Positions 39,890-61,448 of a DNA stretch of 64,000 nucleotides are shown here, piece by piece. The translations under genes and the position numbers were made by a program. Positions within the stretch are counted from its first letter, which is position 1. Every line of letters begins with the position of its first letter. The stretch covers positions 62,001-126,000 of the forward strand of contig NZ_BBMA01000006.1 of NCBI RefSeq assembly GCF_000971215.1, read 5' to 3'. Origin of the DNA: Demequina silvatica (GTDB lineage: Bacteria; Actinomycetota; Actinomycetes; Actinomycetales; Demequinaceae). The notes beneath the pieces are model-generated. The model was given only the letters and a program-made list of their open reading frames with translations, made no database searches and was not told where the DNA came from.

Positions 39890-40861
39890 CTAGACCGAGG
39901 TGGTCCCAGGGAGCTCGGTGACCGCGCCGCTCGCGGTCGGCGAGGTACCACGGAACTTGAGCGTGAAGGCGACCGGGTTGTTCTTGTTCGCGTTCGCGAC
40001 TCTCGGAATCATGAACACGAACTGCGTCGCGTTGTACGACGGAGCCAGGGTGCCTGCAACGAGCGGGAATCGGAAGGTGGTGGTACCTGCGGCGGTGTCG
40101 ACCGTCGAGTCCGCGTAGGACCACGCGCTGGTCCACGCCGCCACCTGCGGGGTGCCCGCACCGAGCGTGTTGGTCGCCACGGTGACGTAAGCAGCGAGAC
40201 CGACGATGCTGGCAGTGTTGTCCGAGGGGTTCGCGAGGATCGCGCCCTGGAGGTTCGTGTAGCGGGTGTTCCCGCTTCCCCCGACATCGCCTTGGGGCCC
40301 GTAGTTCCAAGCAAGGACCGAGTAGGCACCGACCGGAGCGGTCGTGTCGCTCGACTGCACCGAGGCGGTGTTGGACGTGCCCGCCGCGCGCACGGTGAGC
40401 GACGTGGCGGTGCGGTCGGTCGTCTTGGGGATGCTTGCGACGAGAGGCGCGGTGGGTGCAGCGGCGGTGACGTCACCCGTCCACGCGAATACGACCGTGC
40501 GCGTGGCGCCGACCTGCGCCTCGGTGGACTCGTATGCCCAGCCGGCGCTCGAGGTCGACGGCGTACCGGAGCCGAGCCGCGCCGCCGGGACAGCGATACG
40601 CACCTTCACCAGCGAAACAGGGTGGTCCGCCTGAGGTGCACCGTCGCCGACATACGCGGCGGTCGCCCTAACTGTGAAGGTGGTCGTGTCTTGGATCGCA
40701 GACACTCCCGCGAGCACCAGCCCGCCGGTGACGGCGGGCGAGGCTGCAGCAGCGGGCGAGGCCGTCGCGATGAGCACCGCAGGCGCGGACCACGCCATGC
40801 CCTGGACGATGCGGCGGCGCGAGACAGCGCCGGAGCGCACGGAGTCCTTCTGAATGGTCAT
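39890..40861 (-). CDS. Exported protein with double-arginine signal, large paralogue
   Basis: A 323-residue protein. The N-terminus has SRRRIVQGMAWSAPAVLIAT and then ASPAAAAS, a Tat-like signal with a short hydrophobic core and AxA cleavage site near residue 40. The mature protein is rich in Thr, Ser, Ala and Val with alternating polar-hydrophobic strands (TTTFTVRATAAYVGD, TTFRFPLVAGTL), suggesting an all-beta surface or fibre protein. A paralogous signal lies in the gene at 41028. The ATG at 40861 aligns with the paralogue; GTG 40840 with AAGGA upstream is a strong alternative. The function is unknown. Confidence 0.65.
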   Translation of the reverse strand: MTIQKDSVRSGAVSRRRIVQGMAWSAPAVLIATASPAAAASPAVTGGLVLAGVSAIQDTTTFTVRATAAYVGDGAPQADHPVSLVKVRIAVPAARLGSGTPSTSSAGWAYESTEAQVGATRTVVFAWTGDVTAAAPTAPLVASIPKTTDRTATSLTVRAAGTSNTASVQSSDTTAPVGAYSVLAWNYGPQGDVGGSGNTRYTNLQGAILANPSDNTASIVGLAAYVTVATNTLGAGTPQVAAWTSAWSYADSTVDTAAGTTTFRFPLVAGTLAPSYNATQFVFMIPRVANANKNNPVAFTLKFRGTSPTASGAVTELPGTTSV

Positions 40862-41027: not shown

Positions 41028-41612
41028 TTAGGTGGCGGGCGAGAGGTTCACGGACGGCATGGTGTTGGTGCCGCCGTACTGTCCCTGCACGCGAGCGAGA
41101 GCAATCGTGCCGACGTTGGTGAAGGCGACCGAAACACCGCTCGTCACGGCGTCGTCTGCCAGAGGACCGTTGTAGCGGACAATCAGGACGCCGTCGACTG
41201 GCGCTGTCTGCTTGCCATCCGAGGCCTGGCGGGTCTCCGTTGTCACCTCGGACCAGCCGTCGCCCGCAATCACCCACGAAGGCGCCACCCAGGTGTTGCC
41301 GTTGCGGTTGAATCGCTGGAATTCGATCCGAATCTCCGTGCGGGTGATGGCGTACGTCGAGTTGTTGTCCACGCGCTGAACTGTCGCAGTTACGGTGCGG
41401 GCCGAGGCCGCAGTGCCACCCGAACCTGTAATCGTTTGCTTTCCCGAGTTCCCGACAACACCGAAGAGCGGCGTCATCAGGGGGTCCGAACCGGCGAACG
41501 CCGGCGCCGCGGTAGCGATAAGTACCGCAGGCGTGGCCCACGCGGCACCCTGCACCAGGCGGCGACGCGAGATCCCCGCACCCGACCGAGCGTTGGTCGA
41601 CTCGACAGTCAT
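41028..41612 (-). CDS. Exported protein with double-arginine signal, small paralogue
   Basis: A 194-residue protein starting TVESTNARSGAGISRRRLVQ after Met and continuing GAAWATPAVLIATAAPAFAG, almost the same signal as in the gene at 39890. The mature part is beta-rich (YAITRTEIRIEFQRFNRNGN, NTWVAPSWVIAG) with no recognised domain. GAGGGG precedes the ATG. It ends with TAA, less common in this GC-rich DNA. The pair follows the PqqD-kinase operon on the same strand and could be its exported targets or simply surface proteins of the same island; the link is positional only. The 166-bp gap 40862-41027 shows nothing notable. Confidence 0.65.
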   Translation of the reverse strand: MTVESTNARSGAGISRRRLVQGAAWATPAVLIATAAPAFAGSDPLMTPLFGVVGNSGKQTITGSGGTAASARTVTATVQRVDNNSTYAITRTEIRIEFQRFNRNGNTWVAPSWVIAGDGWSEVTTETRQASDGKQTAPVDGVLIVRYNGPLADDAVTSGVSVAFTNVGTIALARVQGQYGGTNTMPSVNLSPAT

Positions 41613-41729
41613 GAAGTACCCCTCAGTGCTCATGAGCGCGCCCCTCAGCGGACGCGTTTGCCCTGAGAGTAGCGGCACCCGGCGCCATTGACCACACAGT
41701 TAACGCGGAAGTTACTCAACGCGCAGGAA

Positions 41730-41879
41730 TCATGCGGCGTTCATCGCCGCGTAGGTGAGCATCACCACCACCACCGTGATCGAGACGATGATCGCCCAGC
41801 CCGGCATCCCACCGTGCTCGCGCACCAGCCAGTGACGATGCCCCATCGGCGTGTAGGAGCGCTGACGCCGTCTTGCCAT
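41730..41879 (-). CDS. 49-residue single-helix membrane peptide
   Basis: A small gene with GGGGGG before the ATG. The peptide has a basic start (ARRRQRSYTPMGHRHWLVRE), a Gly-Gly, then a helix (GWAIIVSITVVVVMLTYAAM). It lies 75 bp after the second PqqD gene on the same strand, and before the two exported paralogues. A membrane peptide next to PqqD-type peptide-binding proteins could be a modified precursor, with Gly-Gly as a processing site, but a plain structural membrane peptide is equally possible. Confidence 0.55.
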   Translation of the reverse strand: MARRRQRSYTPMGHRHWLVREHGGMPGWAIIVSITVVVVMLTYAAMNAA

Positions 41880-41954: not shown

Positions 41955-42233
41955 TCAGTCTCGGGAGACGAGTCCCAGTTCTATCAACGCGACGACGAAC
42001 GCCTCGACATCGGCCGCGATCTCGCCGGCGTCGATCCCATACGCCTCCGCGAGCTCGTCCACGATCGCGTCCACGTCCCGCGTGCCGTCGATCCGTGCCC
42101 AGATCTCGAACGACGACCCCTCGAACAGGTGCGGCACCTGCTGCGCCTCGATGCGTGGGAGGTTCAGCACCACCGCGTACTCGTCATGGAGCACCTCGGC
42201 GATCCCGGACGCGCGGCTGAGTTCGCCGGTCAT
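41955..42233 (-). CDS. PqqD-family peptide-binding protein, second copy
   Basis: A 92-residue winged-helix PqqD/RRE domain: the beta part DEYAVVLNLPRIEAQQVPHL, then EGSSFEIWARIDGTRDVDAI and the helix DELAEAYGIDAGEIAADVEA ending FVVALIELGLV. PqqD proteins bind a leader peptide or a partner protein for modification. Its ATG overlaps the nucleotidyltransferase stop (ATGA). It ends the tightly overlapped part of the operon. The binding partner is unknown. Confidence 0.85.
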   Translation of the reverse strand: MTGELSRASGIAEVLHDEYAVVLNLPRIEAQQVPHLFEGSSFEIWARIDGTRDVDAIVDELAEAYGIDAGEIAADVEAFVVALIELGLVSRD

Positions 42234-43186
42234 CGCAGGTCTCCGTCGAGGATCGACGCGTCCGTCACACCACGACGGGCCAGCACGCGGCCCCAGAGAG
42301 CGCGCGGGGCGGCACGCAGGCCGCGGACGATGCGCGCCCACCGGCCGTGGATAGCCGAACCGCGGCCGGGGGGAACCTCGGGATGGACGCGTCGAAACTC
42401 GGCCTCGCGCGGCCAGATCATGCGGGCAACCATGCCGGGCTTCGCCCGCCATCTTGTTCGACCGATCAGGATCATCCATTGAGCCGTGGTCTCCCCACGC
42501 CCACCCACACGTGCGCGCCAGGCGTCGAGCGCGGGGTCTGCGCCGTAAGGCGTCGCCGTTGGCAAGTCGACCCCGAGGCGCTCCAGCACTGGCCGCGCCG
42601 TGTCCGCCGCGCCCGCCGCGATCGCGAGCGCCACCACGTCGGCACGGTCATGGTCGTCGAGCCCCGGCAGCACCTCATCCACGAGTCGCCGGATCTCGGC
42701 AGCGTGGCGCGGCGTCTGCGCCGGTGTCCTCAGCGCGTGTAGTGCGGCGATGAGGATCGCGCCGGACCGGTCGACCATGTCGATCTCGACGCCCGCGAGC
42801 GTCAACGGCTGGCGCCGGGACCAGAGCTCGTCGAACACCTGCTGCTGCTGCTGCGCAAGGAAGCCGGGGAACTGGACGTGCGCGTCGATGTCGCATGGCC
42901 ACGCGTCGTGGATCAACGTCACCGAGTGAATCGCCTTCGGACCGATGCCGTCCCCGGCTGGCCGCTCATGCCAGCCGTACCGTTGCAGCGCCTCGACGTA
43001 CGTGCCGAATCCATCTGGAGACACCATCACGTCGGCGTCGGCGCTGACGCGCTCCGCTCGGAGGCCATGCGCGGCGGCGCTCGGGCCCTTGATCACCAGC
43101 ACGCGGATCCCGGCCCGCCGCGCGACCTCGACCGCGAGCGCGTGCGCAAGCGGCACGGCATCCGCGGTCGCGAGCGCGGCGTTCAC
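42230..43186 (-). CDS. Nucleotidyltransferase (NTP_transf_5-like)
   Basis: A 318-residue protein of the uncharacterised nucleotidyltransferase family PF14907. Features are VLVIKGPSAAAHGLRAERVS at residues 29-48 and the metal-binding SADADVMV with Asp50 and Asp52, followed by LIHDAWPCDIDAHVQFPGFL. The carboxylates are intact, so activity is plausible; the acceptor is unknown. It overlaps both PqqD genes by four bases (GTGA and ATGA). The same kinase-PqqD-nucleotidyltransferase set occurs elsewhere beside polysaccharide or peptide genes without a proven function. Confidence 0.85.
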   Translation of the reverse strand: MNAALATADAVPLAHALAVEVARRAGIRVLVIKGPSAAAHGLRAERVSADADVMVSPDGFGTYVEALQRYGWHERPAGDGIGPKAIHSVTLIHDAWPCDIDAHVQFPGFLAQQQQQVFDELWSRRQPLTLAGVEIDMVDRSGAILIAALHALRTPAQTPRHAAEIRRLVDEVLPGLDDHDRADVVALAIAAGAADTARPVLERLGVDLPTATPYGADPALDAWRARVGGRGETTAQWMILIGRTRWRAKPGMVARMIWPREAEFRRVHPEVPPGRGSAIHGRWARIVRGLRAAPRALWGRVLARRGVTDASILDGDLR

Positions 43187-43500
43187 TCGGGCGAGTCCAC
43201 CGTCATCACGCCTCGCGAGACCAGCACCGTGATGATGTCGCGGGCCATGTCGCTCGGGTCGACCGCGCCGGGCTCCCCGAACTCGAGCACGAGCCGTCGG
43301 CCCAGGTCCGCGACCGTGATCCCGCGTCGCGACGCAAGCACCGCCTCGGTCGCCACCGGCGACAGCAGCGTGACGTCGTTACCGGCCAGGACGAGCATCT
43401 CGCCGCCTCGCTCAAGGGCGTCATCCCATGCGGACCGGACCACCGCATCGTCCGGAAGCCTGTACGGGTCGGTAGCCTCGTCCACCAGCATGTCGGTCAT
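43183..43500 (-). CDS. PqqD-family peptide-binding protein, first copy
   Basis: A 105-residue protein. The first part (TDPYRLPDDAVVRSAWDDAL, ERGGEMLVLAGNDVTLLSPV) and the second (ATEAVLASRRGITVADLGRR, then DMARDIITVLVSRGVMTVD) give the PqqD-like strand and helix pattern. It is coupled by four-base overlaps to the kinase gene upstream and the nucleotidyltransferase downstream. It diverges strongly from the second copy, so the two may bind different partners. Confidence 0.8.
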   Translation of the reverse strand: MTDMLVDEATDPYRLPDDAVVRSAWDDALERGGEMLVLAGNDVTLLSPVATEAVLASRRGITVADLGRRLVLEFGEPGAVDPSDMARDIITVLVSRGVMTVDSPE

Positions 43501-44894
43501 CGCGCCCCTTCGAAAAGGGTCGGCATGAGCGGCAGAAGGTCGCGCGACTCGGCGTATCGGATCCGGACCAGGCCACCGATCGACTCGACCAGGTCCGCGA
43601 GCGTGTGCAGCTTCTGCGGCAGCCGGGACAGGTAGGACACCTGCTCGGCCAGGTGAGCGAGACCGTGCAGCAGCGGCAGCTCCTCAACCACCGGGTCCGA
43701 CCCGACCGAGGCATCCCGCTCCACCAGGGCGAGGCGCACCAAACGCAGCCGCCCCGATGGCGGAGACATGAGGTCGAGCGACTCGGGCCCCCACTGTTCC
43801 TTGGTGGGGCTCGTACCGTCGAGCACGGACAGCGGCTTCGGGTACGGCAGCACGGTGCGGCCCACATCGATCGCGAGGGTCTCGTCGGTGACATAGCCGT
43901 AGTGGGCACCGAGAGTGCGCGACAACGTGGTCTTGCCCGTGCCCGAGGGTGCGATGAAGCCGACGACGTCGCCGTCGGGCGAGGCGAGTCCGGCCGCATG
44001 GAGCATCACAAGCGATCCCACGCGCTGCTCGATCGCCCGCACCGTCACCGCGGAGGACAGGTAGTGCAGCGCCCGCTCGACGTCGGGATACGCCAGCACA
44101 CCGCGACTGCGGGCCTCAGCGAGCACTTCGGGATCACGGTCGACCATCACGTCGACGCGGGCCTCGGGCTCGCCGTCCGGGATCACGCACCGTCCCCAGG
44201 CGCGGTGGCCCGCCGCTGCGAGCGCCTCGCGCTCCGAGCCCTCGCAATGGACCGCGACCGTCACGCCGAACGCGTCGACCAGGCACGTCGCCGAGTCGCC
44301 ATCCGAGCCGGACGCCACCACCTGATGTGGCGGCGCCATCGCCGCCCAGAGGTCGGCGATCCACATGGTCGCCTCGTTGATCCGCTCGCCGACCGCGTGG
44401 GCGCGGTCCTCGAGCCGCTCCCACGGCGGCAGCTCCCAGTCGGAGGGCAGGTCATGACGACGCCGCGTGCGCTCGAGGATGGCGGCGTGCTCGCGCAGCG
44501 GCGCGATCATGCTCAGGCCATCATAGAGGTGCGCGAACTCGGACATGGTGAAGGAACGGCCCAGTGCGCGCGGGTGCCGGCGGACCAGCTCGTCACGCTC
44601 GATGCCCGTACCGACCACGAAGAGATCGGTCGACTCGACCATCGCGTCGCTGAGCGAGCGCGCCCTGAAACCCTGGACGCTGCCGCCCTGCTCGAGGATG
44701 ACTTCGCGCGCGAGGTCCTGCATGGCCGCGCCGTCTTCGGCGTTGAGCCCAGCCGAGGTGATGCGGATCCGGTCTGCTCCCACGCCGCGCGCCCAGAGGT
44801 GCTTGCGCAGCAGCCGCTCCCCCACCACCGAGCGCCCGGTGTTGGTGGCGTCGACGATCAGGACGCGGAATGCGATCCCGGACTCCCACGGCAT
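43497..44894 (-). CDS. Inactive LMW-phosphatase domain fused to HprK-like kinase
   Basis: A 465-residue two-domain protein. Residues 8-185 follow the low-molecular-weight tyrosine phosphatase fold: the P-loop reads IVDATNTGRSVVGERLLRK at 13-31, where the family has V-C-x-G-N-x-C-R-S-P. Asp15 replaces the catalytic Cys, and ELPPWERLE near 154-162 replaces the general-acid DP loop. Arg21 and Ser22 remain. Residues 195-465 resemble HprK serine kinase/phosphorylase, with Walker A IAPSGTGKTTLSRTLG at 314-329 and DETLAID at 337-343. It starts one base after the BY-kinase stop and overlaps the first PqqD. A phosphotyrosine-reading role for the dead domain is inference. Confidence 0.82.
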   Translation of the reverse strand: MPWESGIAFRVLIVDATNTGRSVVGERLLRKHLWARGVGADRIRITSAGLNAEDGAAMQDLAREVILEQGGSVQGFRARSLSDAMVESTDLFVVGTGIERDELVRRHPRALGRSFTMSEFAHLYDGLSMIAPLREHAAILERTRRRHDLPSDWELPPWERLEDRAHAVGERINEATMWIADLWAAMAPPHQVVASGSDGDSATCLVDAFGVTVAVHCEGSEREALAAAGHRAWGRCVIPDGEPEARVDVMVDRDPEVLAEARSRGVLAYPDVERALHYLSSAVTVRAIEQRVGSLVMLHAAGLASPDGDVVGFIAPSGTGKTTLSRTLGAHYGYVTDETLAIDVGRTVLPYPKPLSVLDGTSPTKEQWGPESLDLMSPPSGRLRLVRLALVERDASVGSDPVVEELPLLHGLAHLAEQVSYLSRLPQKLHTLADLVESIGGLVRIRYAESRDLLPLMPTLFEGAR

Positions 44895-44895
44895 G

Positions 44896-46386
44896 TCAGG
44901 CTCGCGGGTGTTCGGCGGGTGCGTCTGCGCTGGCGACGTGGTCCCAGGCAAGGTCGCCCCGCGCGGGTGGGGGCGTCACGCTGGACTGTGCATCGGTGTC
45001 GTTCTTGCCGCGCTTGCGGTCGCCCTCGGTTGAGTAGTCGTACGCATACGCGTAAGCGTCCTTGTAGGCACCCTTGCGCGGCATTGCATCGACGATGATG
45101 CCGAGCGCACGCCCATTGACACGGTCCAAGTTCTGCAGCGCGCGGTCGAGCACGTCGATGGTGGTGCGCCCCGAGGCCGCGACCACGAGCGCGCCGTCGG
45201 TGCGCGCGGTGAGCACTGCGGCGTCCGTCACAGGGATAAGCGGCGGCGTGTCGATGAGGATCAGCGCGTCCGTCGGGAAACTGTAGAGGAGCTTGTGCAT
45301 CGCATCGGAGGCGAGCAGCTCGGACGGGTTCGGCGGGATCGCCCCCGAAGCGAGCACGTAGAAGTGGTCGGTGTCGCCGTACGGCTGAAGCACGTCCTGG
45401 GCGCGAGCGCGACCGACGAGCACGTCGGTGAGGCCTGCGTCCGCGCCGAGGCCGAGGTTCTTTGCGACCGTGGGACGGCGCAGGTCAGCATCGATCAGCA
45501 CGACGTCACGGCCGGACTCGGCGACGGCCTCGGCAAGCTTGATGATGGTGGTCGACTTGCCGTCGCCAGGGAGTGAGCTGGTGACGACGATCACGCGCGG
45601 CGGATTGTCGACGTCCATGAACTGCAAGTTGGTGCGGACCTGGCGAATGGCCTCGGACATGGCGAAGTCGGACTTCGCGTTCGCGACGCCGTTCTTGGCG
45701 ATCGCGTCGTCGTAAGGCAGCGCCCCCAAGACGGGGATGTCAAACTCGCGCTCCACGTCCTCAGGCTTGCGCAGACGCCGGTCGAGCGTGGACTTGATCA
45801 GCGCATAGCCGACGCCGAGAGCGAGGCCGACAAGCAACCCGAGTGCCACGGCGAGCTTGACGTTGGGGCTGGAGGGCGCGCCAGGAAGCACTGCGCTGTC
45901 GAGAGTCTGGAGAGCGACAACCGACTCAGCGTCACCCCCGCCGGCCCCGGAGTTCTCGATGTCAGCGACAGCCTGCGTCATGCCGGAGATCCAGGCCTCA
46001 ACCAGGTCACGCGCCTCTTCTGGGGTCGAGCCGTTCGCCGCCACGCGAAGGACGGCCGTGTCGAGCGGGTTAGAGACCGTCACACGGGCGACCAGTCCGT
46101 CCGGGCTCGAATCGAGATCGAGTTCCGCGACTGCGTACTCGGCGACCTTGCGGGACTTCGCGATGTCGAGGTAGCTCTTGACCCGGGACTTCGCATAGTT
46201 GTCACCTACCAGCGCACTGCCGAGGTCCTGGCTCGCACCGGTCGTGATGATGGCCGAACCTGTGGCGGCGTAGACCTTGGGCTGTGTGAGGGTCCAGCCG
46301 AACGCAGCCGCCCCGCCCAACGCGGCCGCGAGCAGTATCGCGACCCAATGCGTGCGGAGCACGCGAAGATAGTCGTCGAGTTCCAT
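44896..46386 (-). CDS. Wzz-domain bacterial tyrosine kinase, first copy
   Basis: A 496-residue polysaccharide copolymerase/autokinase. Two membrane helices (near 15-33 and 178-198) flank a Wzz domain. The cytoplasmic BY-kinase has Walker A SSLPGDGKSTT (270-280), Walker A' VVLIDADLRRP, Walker B LILIDTPPL and a tyrosine cluster AYKDAYAYAYDYSTEGD that is autophosphorylated in relatives. It controls chain length and export of an exopolysaccharide. It heads the operon that contains the dead-phosphatase/HprK fusion. Start: MELDDYLRVLRTHW, the same as the second copy at 60075. The promoter must be in 46387-46589, cut off from further upstream DNA by an IS256 insertion. Confidence 0.93.
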   Translation of the reverse strand: MELDDYLRVLRTHWVAILLAAALGGAAAFGWTLTQPKVYAATGSAIITTGASQDLGSALVGDNYAKSRVKSYLDIAKSRKVAEYAVAELDLDSSPDGLVARVTVSNPLDTAVLRVAANGSTPEEARDLVEAWISGMTQAVADIENSGAGGGDAESVVALQTLDSAVLPGAPSSPNVKLAVALGLLVGLALGVGYALIKSTLDRRLRKPEDVEREFDIPVLGALPYDDAIAKNGVANAKSDFAMSEAIRQVRTNLQFMDVDNPPRVIVVTSSLPGDGKSTTIIKLAEAVAESGRDVVLIDADLRRPTVAKNLGLGADAGLTDVLVGRARAQDVLQPYGDTDHFYVLASGAIPPNPSELLASDAMHKLLYSFPTDALILIDTPPLIPVTDAAVLTARTDGALVVAASGRTTIDVLDRALQNLDRVNGRALGIIVDAMPRKGAYKDAYAYAYDYSTEGDRKRGKNDTDAQSSVTPPPARGDLAWDHVASADAPAEHPRA

Positions 46387-46589
46387 CAATTCCCTCGCCC
46401 TAAAGTCGCAGTGGGAGCAAGTGTAGGCGCAATGCGAAGCACCTCGTGCAAGCGCTCAACCGGGGGCCGGTGCGACCACTCACAGGTCACGGAGTTGCGA
46501 CCGATGGCTGCCACTGCACACACATTGGGCATGTCAGCGCCGCCACGAACGGGCGAGCTCGGGACTCACCCAGACCGCTAGGTTGCGCA

Positions 46590-47992
46590 GGTGACGTCCC
46601 GCTGTGTGGTGGAGTTTCTCGACACCGTGCGGGTCAGTCGTTCTGATTATGCAGCGGTGAGTTCGGGGATGGCTACCTCCTCGGGTTCGGCTAGGAGCAG
46701 TGCCATGGAGTGCTCGCTGAAGTAGCGGCGGTCGGCACCGTCCCATTCGTCGTGTTGCTCGATCAGGACGTGCCCGGCCAGGCGAAGCAGCGCGGCGGGG
46801 TTGGGGAACGTGCCGACGACGTCGGTGCGGCGCTTGATCTCCTTGTTGACCCGCTCGAGCGGGTTCGTGGACCAGATCTGACGCCAGTGCGGAAACGGGA
46901 ACGCCGTGAACGCGAGCAAGTCGTCACGGGCCGCCTCGAGCATGTCGGCGATCTTGGGATGCGAACGGGTGAGCATCGTCACGACCTCGTCGAACTGGGC
47001 GTGGACGTGCTCACGGTCGGGTTGGGCGAAGATCGTGCGGATGATGGACGCGACCATCGACCCCGCCGCCTTCGGAACATTCGCGAGGACGTTGCGCATG
47101 AAGTGGACCCGGCATCGCTGCCAGCTCGCGCCCTGCATCACAGTGTGGATCGCCGCGATGAGCCCGGTGTGCGCGTCAGAGATCACCAGCTGCACCCCGC
47201 CCAGCCCGCGGGCCTTCAATGAGCGCAGGAACTCGGTCCAGAACGGCTGGGACTCGGTATCGCCGACGTCGAAGCCGAGCACCTCACGCCGTCCGTCCGC
47301 GGCCACACCCACCGCGACCACGATCGCTTGGGACACGACCCGCCGGCCGACCCGGGCTTTGCAGTACGTCGCGTCGAGGAACACGTACGGATAAGCCTGA
47401 TCCGACAGGGGTCGGTCGCGGAACGCGGCGACGTCCTCATCCAGATCAGCGCAGATGCGTGACACCTCGGACTTCGAGATCCCGGTGTCCGCGCCGAGGG
47501 CCTTGACCAGGTCATCGACCTTGCGGGTCGATACGCCGTGGACGTAGGCCTCCATCACGACCGCGAACAGGGCCTGGTCGATCCGGCGGCGGCGTTCCAA
47601 CAGCGACGGGAAGAACGAGCCCGTGCGCAGCTTCGGGATCCGCAGATCGAGCTCACCGGCGGTCGTGGTCAGGGTGCGCATGCGGGAGCCGTTGCGTTGC
47701 GTGGTGCGGGCCTCGGTGCGCTGGTACGGGGCGGCACCGATGAACGCGGCCGCTTCCGCATCGATCAATTCTTGATAGAGCGTCTCGGTCGCGACGCGAA
47801 TCCGGTCGCTGACCTCGGTGAGTTTGAGTTCCCCGAGCAGCTCGAGCAGGGCAGACTGGTCAAGAGCCATCGTGCGTTGTGTCCTTCCGTGAGATTCCTA
47901 GACAGTTCTCACTGACCATCGCACGATGGCTCCTCAGCGTCTACGACACCGAAGACCCCGCCGGAAAGTCCACCACCCCACGGGACGTCACC
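46590..47992. mobile_element. IS256-family insertion sequence with 9-bp target duplication
   Basis: Both ends were located. The left end reads GGTGACGTCCCG and then GTGGTGGAGTTTC; the complement of the right end reads GGTGACGTCCCG and then GTGGTGGACTTTC, giving imperfect inverted repeats of about 30 bp. GGTTGCGCA stands directly outside both ends (46581-46589 and 47993-48001), a 9-bp target duplication typical of IS256. The element is 1403 bp and holds one intact transposase. It inserted between the minus-strand BY-kinase operon and a plus-strand glycosyltransferase. The exact duplication suggests a recent event. Confidence 0.93.
46647..47870 (-). CDS. IS256-family transposase (Mutator type)
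   Basis: A 407-residue DDE transposase. The first Asp lies in YPYVFLDATYCKARVG, the second in VQLVISDAHTGLIAAI, followed by ASWQRCRVHFMRNVL with the C/D(2)H motif, and the Glu in STNPLERVNKEIKRRTDVVG. N-terminal RTTQRNGSRMRTLTTTAGEL and LRIPKLRTGSFFPSLLERRR are typical. No frameshift is seen. The short palindrome CCATCGCACGATGG overlaps the promoter side just beyond the start. Confidence 0.96.
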   Translation of the reverse strand: MALDQSALLELLGELKLTEVSDRIRVATETLYQELIDAEAAAFIGAAPYQRTEARTTQRNGSRMRTLTTTAGELDLRIPKLRTGSFFPSLLERRRRIDQALFAVVMEAYVHGVSTRKVDDLVKALGADTGISKSEVSRICADLDEDVAAFRDRPLSDQAYPYVFLDATYCKARVGRRVVSQAIVVAVGVAADGRREVLGFDVGDTESQPFWTEFLRSLKARGLGGVQLVISDAHTGLIAAIHTVMQGASWQRCRVHFMRNVLANVPKAAGSMVASIIRTIFAQPDREHVHAQFDEVVTMLTRSHPKIADMLEAARDDLLAFTAFPFPHWRQIWSTNPLERVNKEIKRRTDVVGTFPNPAALLRLAGHVLIEQHDEWDGADRRYFSEHSMALLLAEPEEVAIPELTAA

Positions 47993-49611: not shown

Positions 49612-51386
49612 CCTGAGTTGGCTCATTCGCTTAGTGCGTGAGTTCAGGCTCGCTCGAGGGCGTCGAGGATGGCTTGCTCGGCTTCGGGGATCTCGGGTGT
49701 GAAGGTCTGTTCGGTGCCGTTGATCGCGATGGTCGCGGACCGTAGCGGCCGTAGTTGACGGATGACGTTGCGGATCGCGAGTCCGCTGCGGGCTTGGATC
49801 TCGCGGCTGACGGCCAGGGCGGTGAACACGATGGTCAGGTGCGCTTCGATCGCATCGCGGGTGTGGTGGAACATGGGCCGGGCGCGCAGGTCGGTCTGCG
49901 ACATCCGGAACGACTGCTCGACGTTCCATAGCGCGTGGTAGCTGGTCATGACCTCACGGGCGGGCATGAGCTCGGCGGGGATGTTCGTGACGTAGCCCTT
50001 GAGTCCGACCAGTCGCCGTGCACGAGCTAGCGACGCTTCGTCGAGTCGGCGTGCGCCGTTGGTCGTCTTCACGAAGCGGGGCGTACGTGTGGCCTTGTCA
50101 CCGGACACGACGTCACGAGCGCGCTGCTCTTGCAGTGTCAGGGTGCGGTTGTCGCGCACGGCGCGCTTGGCGGAGTACGCCCACACGGCCCGCCACGACC
50201 GCTCGTGGTGGTCGGCGTTCCAGATGGGTTCGGCCTTGACCAGCGGGTTCGATGCGCCGTCCTTGCGAGCATGCCCGGTGCGTGGGGTGATGGTGTCGAT
50301 GACCTGCCCGTCAACGAAGGCGTCGCCGTGCCACCGGAAGTGGGACTCCAGGTCCACTGGTGCCTTCGTGACGCGGGACCCGACGATGAAGTTCAGCCCT
50401 GCGTCGTCGAGCTCGCGCAGGTTCGTCGCGGACAGCATGCCGGCGTCGGCGACGATGACGATCTCGGCCAGGCCGTGGCGCTGTTGGAACTGGCGCACGA
50501 TCGGCACCAGGGTGAGGGTCTCGGCCTTGTTGCCTTCGAAGCATCCGATCTCGAGCGGGAAGCCGTTGCGGTCGACGAGGAGTCCGACGACGACCTGCGG
50601 GTCGACGCGACGCTCTTTCGAGTAGCCGACCTTGCGGAGGCCGTCTTCCTTCTCTGCTTCGAAGTACAACGTCGTGACGTCATAGAGCACCAGCGAGATG
50701 TCGCCGGCGTTCATCGCGTGGGTGAAGCAGGCGGCGGCGATCGTGTCGCGGTAGGCGCCCGCCATCGACCTACCTAGGGTGCGCTTCATCGTCGCGTACG
50801 ACGCCGGCGTGCGCCCCAAGTCCGTGAGCACGCGCCCGGTATCGAGCAGCGAGGTCGGTTCCACGATTCGTGAGATCACCAGGTCGCGGAACACGTCGTC
50901 GTCGACGGCGTCGAACCCCAAGGACGCGTACACGCGGGCCAGGACGTCGAACAGCAGGCGCGAGTCGGTGCCGACGACCCGACCAGACCCATCACGACGC
51001 GCCGCCGTGCTGCGCGGCTCCACGTCAACAAGGTCGTCGCGTCGCGGACTCACGAGGTCCGCGACCAGCGGGGTGGGGGTGACGTCGAACTCGAGCGCGC
51101 CCTGATCGGGATCGCCGAGCAGCTGGCCGGCCTGCTCAAGCAGGATCCCCAGCTCGGCTTCCGTATGCGCCGACCCGACATGACGCACAATCCGCTGCCG
51201 CCCGCCGGCGTACTCGGCGATCTGGACCGCCGTCGCTCCCGACGCGGTCCGCACCCGCCTGATGAACGCCACACCGAGACCCTAGACGCCCACGCCTTAG
51301 TGCGTGAAAACGCACTAAGCACCAACCATCACCCCAGGTACACCGGATGCGCCATCGCCGACGGCCGGCGCGTGAGCCAAGTCAGG
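49612..51386. mobile_element. IS1634-like insertion sequence (IS4 superfamily)
   Basis: A 1775-bp element with 14-bp terminal inverted repeats: CCTGAGTTGGCTCA at the left and, on the complement, CCTGACTTGGCTCA at the right, one mismatch. Subterminal CTTAGTGCGT occurs near both ends, and at the right forms a perfect hairpin with ACGCACTAAG around GAAA (51296-51319) before the transposase start. The element lies exactly between two 623-bp direct repeats. IS1634 of Mycoplasma is known for target duplications of up to several hundred bp, so the repeats are best read as its target-site duplication. Confidence 0.9.
49644..51272 (-). CDS. IS1634-family transposase
   Basis: A 542-residue DDE transposase of the IS4/IS1634 group. 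It begins AFIRRVRTASGATAVQIAEY after the start and has an N-terminal region with RIVRHVGSAHTEAELGIL. Asp residues lie in LVLYDVTTLYFEAEKEDGLR and IVIVADAGMLSATNLREL, and the Glu lies in LWNVEQSFRMSQTDLRARPM, followed by HHTRDAIEAHLTIVFTALAV. GTG start. The frame is intact, so the element may be active. Confidence 0.93.
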   Translation of the reverse strand: MAFIRRVRTASGATAVQIAEYAGGRQRIVRHVGSAHTEAELGILLEQAGQLLGDPDQGALEFDVTPTPLVADLVSPRRDDLVDVEPRSTAARRDGSGRVVGTDSRLLFDVLARVYASLGFDAVDDDVFRDLVISRIVEPTSLLDTGRVLTDLGRTPASYATMKRTLGRSMAGAYRDTIAAACFTHAMNAGDISLVLYDVTTLYFEAEKEDGLRKVGYSKERRVDPQVVVGLLVDRNGFPLEIGCFEGNKAETLTLVPIVRQFQQRHGLAEIVIVADAGMLSATNLRELDDAGLNFIVGSRVTKAPVDLESHFRWHGDAFVDGQVIDTITPRTGHARKDGASNPLVKAEPIWNADHHERSWRAVWAYSAKRAVRDNRTLTLQEQRARDVVSGDKATRTPRFVKTTNGARRLDEASLARARRLVGLKGYVTNIPAELMPAREVMTSYHALWNVEQSFRMSQTDLRARPMFHHTRDAIEAHLTIVFTALAVSREIQARSGLAIRNVIRQLRPLRSATIAINGTEQTFTPEIPEAEQAILDALERA

Positions 51387-60074: not shown

Positions 60075-61448
60075 GTGGAGCTACAAGACTATCTCCGGAT
60101 TCTCCGCAAGAACTGGATCATGATCGTCCTCCTCATGCTCGTCGGCGCGGGTGCCGGCCTGACGTACTCGATGTTGGCGACTCCGACGTACGCCGCCTCG
60201 GCCAAGGTGTTTGTCTCGACCTCGGCCGGCTCGACCGTCGCGGACCTCGCGCAGGGCAACAGCTTCACCCAGCAGCGTGTCAAGACCTACGCGGACCTCA
60301 TCAACACGGCGGCGGTCCTGCAGCCCACCATCGACGACCTACATCTTGACCTGAGCGTCGCCGACCTGCGCGCCAAAGTTGCTGCAACCTCCCCGCTCAA
60401 CACTTCCGTGATCGACATCGCCGTCACCGATTCTGATCCAGTCTTCGCAGCATCTCTTGCGACGGAATCCGCCAACCAGCTCATCCACGTCGTAGAAGGA
60501 ATCGAAACCACCGATGCGGCGGAGGGGTCGCCGGTGAGTCTCACGGTGGTGCAGGAGGCCGAGGTCCCGGTGCAACCCGTCAGCCCCAAGAAGACGCTAA
60601 ACGTCGCGCTTGGCCTGCTGCTTGGGCTAGCCCTGGGTGTGGGCATCGCCTTGCTTCGCACCACTCTTGACACCCGCATCCGTGGCGAGCGAGATCTCGA
60701 GCGCATCACCGACGTCCCGGTGCTCGGCGGCATAGTGTTCGACCCGAAGGCCAAGCAGCGCCCCCTCCTCGTTCACGAGGATGCACGCAGCCCACGCGCA
60801 GAGTCCTTCCGCACGCTGCGCACCAACCTGCAGTTCCTCGACACCGAGCGCTCGTCGCGAAGCTTCGTGGTGACGTCGTCGATCCCTTCGGAAGGCAAGT
60901 CGACGACGTCGGCGAACCTCGCGATCACCCTGGCAGACGCCGGCGCCCGTGTGCTGCTTGTGGGCGCTGACCTTCGCCGTCCCAAGATGGCGCAGTACAT
61001 GGGCATCGAGGCGGGAGTGGGGCTCACCGACGTCCTCATCGGCCGCCTCGACATCGACAGCGCAATCCAGCGCTGGGGCCGCAGCGAGCTCTACCTGCTC
61101 CCCGCCGGATCGATCCCCCCGAACCCTTCGGAGCTCCTCGGCTCGTCCCGCATGGATGAGCTCATCAAGCAGCTCGACTCGAAGTTCGACGTGGTCCTCT
61201 ACGACGCGCCTCCGCTCCTGCCCGTCACCGACGCGGCCGTACTGGCCAAGCTCGTGGGCGGCGCGGTCGTCATCGTCGCCGCTGGCAAGACTCACGCGCC
61301 CCAGCTCGACAGTGCCCTCCAATCGCTCGAGACCGTAGGCGCCCACGTTTCCGGCCTGGTGCTCTCGATGCTGCCGTCGCGCGGTCCCGACGCTTACGGC
61401 TACGGGCGCTACGGCTACACCTACGAGGAAGAGCCCGCCGGCAAGTAG
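60075..61448 (+). CDS. Wzz-domain bacterial tyrosine kinase, second copy
   Basis: A 457-residue homologue of the protein at 44896: Wzz domain between helices (near 13-33 and 190-210), then a BY-kinase with Walker A SSIPSEGKSTT, Walker A' VLLVGADLRRP (Gly for the usual first Asp), Walker B VVLYDAPPLL and tyrosine cluster YGYGRYGYTYEEE at the end. The GTG at 60075 with GGGGA upstream gives a start (ELQDYLRILRKNW) matching the first copy. It belongs with the plus-strand gmd and fcl genes. No active tyrosine phosphatase is seen in the window. Confidence 0.92.
   Translation: MELQDYLRILRKNWIMIVLLMLVGAGAGLTYSMLATPTYAASAKVFVSTSAGSTVADLAQGNSFTQQRVKTYADLINTAAVLQPTIDDLHLDLSVADLRAKVAATSPLNTSVIDIAVTDSDPVFAASLATESANQLIHVVEGIETTDAAEGSPVSLTVVQEAEVPVQPVSPKKTLNVALGLLLGLALGVGIALLRTTLDTRIRGERDLERITDVPVLGGIVFDPKAKQRPLLVHEDARSPRAESFRTLRTNLQFLDTERSSRSFVVTSSIPSEGKSTTSANLAITLADAGARVLLVGADLRRPKMAQYMGIEAGVGLTDVLIGRLDIDSAIQRWGRSELYLLPAGSIPPNPSELLGSSRMDELIKQLDSKFDVVLYDAPPLLPVTDAAVLAKLVGGAVVIVAAGKTHAPQLDSALQSLETVGAHVSGLVLSMLPSRGPDAYGYGRYGYTYEEEPAGK

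Follow-up and report, generated by a model that had tools for sequence, protein, structure and literature searches.

A catalytically dead LMW-PTP domain fused to an HprK/PEPCK-fold kinase-like domain beside a BY-kinase gene in Demequina

Demequina silvatica encodes a protein of 465 residues in which a domain of the low-molecular-weight protein tyrosine phosphatase (LMW-PTP) family, bereft of its catalytic residues and still in possession of its fold, is fused to a kinase-like domain of the HprK/PEPCK fold. The gene lies on the minus strand of the window, i.e. the whole stretch of 64,000 nucleotides (nt) analysed here (contig NZ_BBMA01000006.1, positions 62,001 to 126,000), in an operon that also encodes a bacterial tyrosine kinase (BY-kinase), two PqqD-like proteins and a nucleotidyltransferase. 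The phosphatase domain is under purifying selection in the genus, and a dead domain that evolution has preserved is probably a docking or control part and not an enzyme. Known folds and a known tailoring set are found here in a new, conserved combination, and the fusion turns covalent one of the frequent partnerships of the HprK-like kinase. The explanation favoured in this work, tentatively and at a probability that falls short of even, is that the dead phosphatase brings this tailoring kinase to the BY-kinase by phosphate-independent docking. The features that carry the argument are the following.

43497..44894, minus strand: fusion gene, pseudo-LMW-PTP plus HprK/PEPCK-fold kinase-like domain, 465 amino acids (Pfam, AlphaFold model, structure matches, 21 full-length members including this one)
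44340..44873, minus strand: pseudo-LMW-PTP domain, residues 8–185 (Pfam LMWPc, structure match to 2cwd, purifying selection)
44829..44852, minus strand: P-loop, residues 15–22, DATNTGRS, with Asp for the catalytic Cys (sequence, orthologue alignment)
44421..44432, minus strand: L155-P-P-W158 where the D-P general-acid loop is expected (orthologue alignment)
43506..44288, minus strand: HprK/PEPCK-fold domain, residues 203–463 (model of residues 199–465, structure matches)
43926..43952, minus strand: Walker A, A315-PSGTGKTT323 (orthologue alignment)
44896..46389, minus strand: BY-kinase (Wzz–Wzc type tyrosine autokinase) with a Tyr cluster at 442–452 (NCBIfam TIGR01007 above cut-off, orthologues upstream)

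Lost catalytic residues in a conserved fold

The reading frame of the fusion opens with an ATG at 44894, 1 nt past the BY-kinase stop at 44896, and closes with a stop at 43497; start, stop and strand agree with the position and frame given in an earlier, sequence-only reading of this DNA. The AlphaFold model of the full-length protein has a predicted local distance difference test score (pLDDT) of 89.4 and a predicted template modelling score (pTM) of 0.82. At the level of sequence, residues 11–94 match Pfam LMWPc (PF01451) above cut-off (E 2.6e-8). At the level of structure, residues 5–184 superpose on the LMW-PTP 2cwd with a VIA-align Z of 21.7 and a root-mean-square deviation (rmsd) of 1.6 Å over 149 residues, and the LMW-PTP fold proposed in that reading is thereby borne out, no unlike fold being found.

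LMW-PTPs are described as carrying a CXGNXCRS motif and a D-loop acid (PMC7948962; this and the other papers cited by PMC number are drawn on from excerpts). The P-loop of the fusion reads V14-D15-A-T-N-T-G-R21-S22, with Cys replaced by Asp and with Arg and Ser retained, so that the CX5R(S/T) nucleophile motif of the active enzymes is absent. The Cys is missing from all 21 full-length fusions, its position being occupied by Asp in 18 of them, by Gly in two and by Ser in one. The same motif is retained in 67/67 other LMW-PTP- or ArsC-like open reading frames (ORFs) of the collected loci, against 0/21 fusions, a contrast that exceeds chance; this tally comes mostly from loci fetched for their resemblance to the fusion protein or to LMW-PTP, and leaves out two weaker LMWPc matches of the D. 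silvatica genome (C12:151885 and C12:152180). The general-acid Asp of the D-loop is also gone, with Pro in the D. silvatica protein and Asp at the aligned position 157 in 2/21 orthologues. Both replacements, that of the catalytic Cys by Asp15 and that of the DP loop by LPPW, had been proposed from the D. silvatica sequence and are confirmed. The accompanying statement that Arg21 and Ser22 stay is correct for the D. silvatica protein and needs qualification for the family, in which Arg21 is kept in 18/21 orthologues and Ser22 in 12/21.

Other changes concern the remainder of the loop. Position 17 is Gly in 44 of 47 active relatives (taken from the 67 ORFs above, namely the 50 with E under 1e-27 that were used in the tree, minus three long or odd rows), and is replaced in 19/21 fusions, by Asp or Glu in six of the 21, while the second P-loop Cys is changed to Gly in 18/21. 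Asp15 and Arg21 covary, both being present in 18/21 and neither in 3/21, a count to which close relatives contribute repeatedly.

Among 199 related genomes searched, 53 gave some match, and the full-length fusion was recovered in 21 of 44 Demequina genomes, that of D. silvatica included, and all 21 belong to this genus. None of them keeps the Cys (0/21), whereas homologues that did so would have spoken against the sequence-only reading; a local mutation or a sequencing error is ruled out, since 21 genomes share the loss. No fusion was seen outside Demequina: among the matches listed for a sample of 394 genomes of the class, both parts stand in a single match in the D. silvatica genome only, and of the 55 loci picked by two peptide patterns from a one-genome-per-species collection, both domains are in one frame in 18, all of Demequina. 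A tree of 71 rows separates the fusions from all other sequences by a branch whose support is 100/98. As they constitute one clade in which every member is without the Cys, the simplest history is a single loss in their common ancestor or earlier.

The ratio of non-synonymous to synonymous substitution rates (dN/dS) in the phosphatase domain is 0.12–0.39 in nine close pairs, which corresponds to purifying selection, and dN is 0 over the P-loop and first helix in four of these nine pairs. Throughout the 21 members the domain has 18 invariant residues and no internal stop; the SAG turn (47–49), Glu26 and Arg27 never vary. Conservation restricted to the fused form is seen at P132, H136, L140 and W183 (21/21) and at Y124 (20/21), which suggests a new contact face.

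Operon partners and candidate clients

The Tyr residues of the BY-kinase stand at positions 442, 446, 448, 450 and 452 and are followed by 45 further residues. In the 20 other fusion genomes a BY-kinase 58–91% identical to it is encoded upstream of the fusion on the same strand, and the gap between the matched parts of the two genes is 5–176 nt in 20/21 genomes and 1,208 nt in one, whose BY-kinase is fragmented. The coupling to a BY-kinase whose tail is a tyrosine cluster, asserted in the sequence-only reading, holds as regards adjacency (21/21 genomes) and requires correction as regards the cluster, which is near the end of the protein, not at its end. In Demequina sediminis (L099, 5403–7621), the BY-kinase is in two pieces and a partial NTP_transf_5 match lies between BY-kinase and fusion. 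The wider region contains polysaccharide genes (Wzy_C, WecG, Bac_transf and glycosyltransferases).

The C-terminal domain of the fusion, modelled alone (residues 199–465), reaches a pLDDT of 96.3 and has the PEPCK/HprK fold, with a whole-length match to the PEPCK 2pc9 (Z 15.1, rmsd 4.3, 246 residues). Its best structural matches are PEPCKs, and HprK 1knx is matched with a Foldseek E of 1.4e-4 and a TM-score of 0.33. Sequence matches are equivocal, as ABC ATPases score on the Walker A region about equal to the family of HprK-related kinase A (TIGR04352), so that the structural match decides the identity of the domain. Of the 39 members of the kinase alignment, 38 match TIGR04352 with an E of 0.01 or lower; the D. 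silvatica protein scores 21 bits, and its domain 22.2 bits (E 6.4e-5), for a cut-off of 200. PF07475 (Hpr_kinase_C) has no match in the fusion up to E 1 and none above cut-off in the D. silvatica genome, results by which a canonical HPr kinase/phosphorylase is ruled out. The domain is therefore a member of the HprK/PEPCK superfamily and a relative of HprK-related kinase A, not a member of the latter by cut-off. Of the previous description as an HprK-type domain with an intact Walker A, the Walker A stands, being invariant in 21/21 orthologues, and the type applies only in the sense of the superfamily. A kinase role for the domain is plausible.

Downstream of the fusion, the operon and the genes that follow are composed as follows.

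43183..43500, minus strand: PqqD-like protein 1, 105 amino acids (start overlaps the fusion stop by 4 nt; Pfam PqqD in some relatives)
42230..43186, minus strand: NTP_transf_5 nucleotidyltransferase, 318 amino acids (PF14907, E 9.1e-9, above cut-off; 4-nt overlap with PqqD 1)
41955..42233, minus strand: PqqD-like protein 2, 92 amino acids (PF05402, E 1.1e-12, above cut-off; 4-nt overlap with the NTP_transf_5 gene)
41730..41879, minus strand: 49-residue peptide with a basic N-terminus and a hydrophobic C-terminus, after PqqD 2 (relatives in 7/18 named loci)
41028..41678, minus strand: protein with a SRRRLVQGAAWATPAVLIATAAPA signal-like motif, candidate client, start codon uncertain (motif pattern, BLAST relatives)
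39890..40861, minus strand: another protein bearing a motif of this kind, candidate client (motif pattern)

The order is thus BY-kinase, dead-phosphatase/HprK-like fusion, PqqD 1, NTP_transf_5, PqqD 2 and then the SRRR-motif proteins, and this operon is a larger finding than the fusion by itself. PqqD 1 is found downstream of the fusion in 18/18 named Demequina loci, and NTP_transf_5 lies 3′ of PqqD 1, as here, in five of these loci; in the other 13 it is 5′ of the fusion, one of them being a partial match. Pfam PqqD matches 10/19 aligned members of PqqD 1 at E up to 10 (best 7.9e-6), the D. silvatica member being unmatched, and no PDB sequence was matched by the PqqD 1 profile with an E below 0.33. 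For PqqD 2, the PqqD_rel_X and lasso PqqD models are below cut-off, as is TIGR04353 (E 5.4e-5, 24 bits for a cut-off of 35).

An HprK-like kinase, a discrete recognition element (RRE) for ribosomally synthesized and post-translationally modified peptides (RiPPs) and a nucleoside triphosphate (NTP) transferase are among the conserved proteins of linear polyphosphorylated peptides (LPP) and are also characteristic of paeninodin-like lasso peptides; the kinase of the LPP pathway loads a single Ser with several phosphates (PMC13381572). Protein B1, the RRE of lasso peptides, is homologous to PqqD (PMC7533575). All three kinds of protein are encoded in one operon here, the NTP transferases being likened by kind and not by the PF14907 family (PMC13381572, PMC7533575). 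The lasso B2 transglutaminase-like protease (PF13471, Transglut_core3) has 0 matches in the D. silvatica genome, and a lasso peptide cluster of the usual kind is accordingly ruled out; the cyclase was not searched for. The PqqD and NTP_transf_5 neighbours, which the sequence-only reading left unmentioned, point to the likely type of client.

Candidate clients are found next to this cassette. The two SRRR proteins have in common a leader-like N-terminus, SRRRxVQGxAWxxPAVLIATAxPA, and proteins with this motif lie mostly at this locus. The DNA pattern of the SRRR core has two matches in the 2.9 Mb genome, both at the operon (backward control 0). With a pattern that differs from the former in two codons, 33 of the 43 matches in the 44 Demequina genomes lie within 8 kb 3′ of the fusion (backward control 2 overall), and such a match is present in 17/21 fusion genomes. 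A BLAST relative of the first SRRR protein (E up to 1e-4) occurs in 17/18 named loci. The motif suggests that these proteins would be exported, by the twin-arginine route. Conserved small ORFs of the 18 loci comprise PqqD 2, the SRRR proteins and the 49-residue hydrophobic peptide.

Relatives outside the fusion show its parts in the separate state. Three members of Nocardioides (N. alkalitolerans, N. zeae and N. sp. ChNu-153) have separate genes for an intact LMW-PTP (CxGNxCRS, DVPDP) and an HprK-like protein, ~0.25–0.5 kb apart on one strand, with the BY-kinase gene divergent, and these loci may represent the same partners before fusion. Two of the three have an opposite-strand PqqD-like match between the LMW-PTP and HprK-like genes (L112 8620–8832 and L114 8624–8845, both minus strand), a gene or a chance reading. 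PqqD is present in 33 of 35 non-Demequina loci (L112–L146, flanks up to 8 kb), and HprK-like and PqqD domains share one frame in 19/53 loci. With PqqD near-constant and such one-frame loci at hand, HprK-like kinase and PqqD are the steady pair, of which BY-kinase and phosphatase are frequent, not constant, partners. One Demequina genome (G019, an assembly of 230 contigs with 4% contamination) has HprK-like and PqqD domains in one frame at two loci (L184 and L185), with a divergent BY-kinase and without the phosphatase fusion.

Roles considered for the dead phosphatase domain

The favoured explanation starts from a Wzb-type LMW-PTP that would have stood beside a BY-kinase and an HprK-like gene and would have become one polypeptide with the HprK-like kinase in the lineage of Demequina, its chemistry being lost and its fold retained. 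The dead domain would act as a phosphate-independent docking and control module on the BY-kinase of the same operon, in whichever direction this control might run, and the docked module would comprise the HprK-like kinase, the NTP_transf_5 enzyme and the PqqD that accompanies the kinase. The kinase module would phosphorylate, and then perhaps further modify, protein clients, most likely the adjacent SRRR proteins, and the tailoring of these clients would thereby be tied to polysaccharide export. In favour of this view stand the shared loss of the Cys in one clade, the purifying selection, the BY-kinase upstream in 21/21 genomes, the separate genes of Nocardioides, the constancy of PqqD, the likeness to the LPP and lasso tailoring set, the gathering of SRRR matches near the fusion and the residues conserved only in the fused form. 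The docking step is plausible by analogy. The tyrosine cluster of Wzc, a BY-kinase, is a substrate of Wzb (PMC2777267), which gives a dead Wzb fold a natural partner, and EcpK, a BY pseudokinase of exopolysaccharide synthesis in Myxococcus xanthus, is proposed to be a scaffold (PMC12004946).

Several observations weigh against this explanation. In one of the nine close pairs (L015/L016), the P-loop stretch evolves faster than the domain (dN 0.288, dS 0.67). The interdomain linker (186–202) is variable, with 19% mean identity, and poorly predicted, and the single-chain models point to no docking site for the phosphatase domain; the new conserved face may touch the HprK-like domain instead of the BY-kinase. 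In the 35 non-Demequina loci, BY-kinase is found in 19 and an LMW-PTP/ArsC-like ORF in 12, so that neither is needed by the HprK-like kinase as such. As to the clients, 4/21 fusion genomes are without an SRRR pattern match within 8 kb; of the named loci concerned, a weaker BLAST match lies close by in L106, L107 and L110, but not in L111. No clear small RiPP precursor is found among the conserved small ORFs of the 18 loci, and the LPP NTP transferase showed no activity in the host used for testing (PMC13381572).

A somewhat unlikely alternative is that of an internal regulatory or assembly domain, the phosphatase fold contacting its own HprK-like domain or dimerizing, with no contact to the BY-kinase. 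It finds support in the residues conserved only in the fusion (P132, H136, L140 and W183), in the purifying selection on the domain and in a parallel with PTPRG, whose D2 domain is inactive and has been proposed to obstruct D1 within a dimer (PMC8766859). However, the HprK-like domain is found elsewhere without a phosphatase domain, the linker is variable and modelled with low confidence, and the adjacency of the BY-kinase in 21/21 genomes would be left unexplained.

Phosphate-independent docking can also be extended into a more elaborate and unlikely scheme, in which a tailoring machine (HprK-like kinase, two PqqD-like carriers and NTP transferase), clamped to the BY-kinase by the dead phosphatase, would modify the SRRR-leader proteins in the cytoplasm before their export and would keep surface proteins and polysaccharide in step. 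If true, bacteria would have here, as far as the literature searched goes, their first LMW pseudophosphatase with an assigned role, and a RiPP-like cassette would be at work on entire exported proteins.

Phosphotyrosine reading was the proposal of the sequence-only reading: the dead pocket would bind the phosphorylated tail of the BY-kinase and switch the fused kinase. The kept Arg21 (18/21), the adjoining BY-kinase with its Tyr-rich tail and the pseudophosphatase STYX, which binds the substrate of an active phosphatase (PMC10211241), speak in its favour, but the pocket makes it quite improbable. With Asp15 at the phosphate site in 18/21, Gly17 replaced in 19/21 (by an acid in six) and Asp15 covarying with Arg21, a pocket closed by an Asp–Arg pair or abandoned fits better than a binding site, and the three members without both residues still have the BY-kinase adjacent. 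As a rule, therefore, the dead pocket probably does not read phosphotyrosine, which weakens that part of the proposal and leaves in place its other part, namely that the pseudophosphatase is conserved, joined to a kinase-like domain and coupled to a BY-kinase. Just as improbable is a decoy, in which the dead domain would cover the BY-kinase tail and keep an active LMW-PTP off. An enzyme of this type, with an intact CTGNICRS motif, is encoded ~31 kb away on the same contig, and STYX competes with DUSP4 in a like manner (PMC10211241), but the fusion to a kinase and the presence of PqqD and NTP_transf_5 would be unexplained, and the pocket raises the same objections.

New chemistry, in which Asp15 would serve as nucleophile or accept a phosphate, either in the manner of HAD enzymes or supplied by the kinase domain, is hardly credible: Asp15 does occupy the place of the old nucleophile in 18/21, but Gly or Ser stands there in 3/21, position 17 varies widely and the general acid is lost, and a HAD-like Asp nucleophile in particular is disfavoured by the absence of a second conserved acid and by an Asp15 that is not universal. 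A tolerated relic, decaying without function, is very improbable too, as dN/dS in the nine pairs, the 18 invariant residues and the lack of internal stops in 21 members outweigh a partly variable P-loop and the loss of Arg21 as well in 3/21.

Known systems and genomic surroundings

Four known systems resemble the Demequina locus in part. Wzb/Wzc of E. coli and V. vulnificus is alike in the LMW-PTP fold and in its place beside a BY-kinase in a polysaccharide locus; in contrast to Wzb, all or most fusion members have lost the nucleophilic Cys, the P-loop Gly, the second Cys and the general-acid Asp, and are joined to another enzyme fold. The HPr-rel-A system (TIGR04352 kinase and TIGR04353 PqqD family) is matched by both the kinase alignment and PqqD 2, whereas the proteins of the window are below the curated cut-offs (22/200 and 24/35 bits, respectively) and the kinase carries a phosphatase domain. 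Unlike the paeninodin and LPP genes, the Demequina locus has neither the lasso B2 protease (in the D. silvatica genome) nor an identified small precursor, and it sits in a polysaccharide locus with a BY-kinase. EcpK of M. xanthus is comparable in being a dead signalling enzyme for which a scaffold role in a polysaccharide system is proposed (PMC12004946); the dead partner is the kinase in that case and the phosphatase, fused to another kinase, in Demequina.

To our knowledge, pseudophosphatases are known mainly from eukaryotes. Among the matches listed in the openly licensed literature, no bacterial LMW-PTP pseudophosphatase was found, and the fusion of a phosphatase with an HprK-like domain is undescribed in titles, opening parts of abstracts and passages. 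The same literature gave no paper on the cassette under its NCBIfam names, and, by title and opening of the abstract, nothing on this operon among the matches listed for Demequina exopolysaccharide. As a case at the level of a genus, with separate active relatives in Nocardioides, the fusion shows how a pseudophosphatase domain can arise, and allows a clear test of the function left to a phosphatase fold that has lost its chemistry. It links three fields that have been pursued separately, namely the control of polysaccharide export by BY-kinases, HprK-like/PqqD tailoring and signal-bearing proteins, the SRRR proteins being concrete candidate substrates for an orphan kinase family.

Other genes of interest are found in the surroundings. 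Two more BY-kinase paralogues, 40% and 59% identical to that of the operon, are located at 60075–61445 of the window (plus strand) and at C12:131990–133435 (L080); the intact LMW-PTP mentioned above is at C12:138111, and the paralogues and this enzyme lie within ~35 kb. Just upstream of the operon, transposases of the IS256 and IS1634 types are encoded at 46647–47870 and 49644–51272, both on the minus strand.

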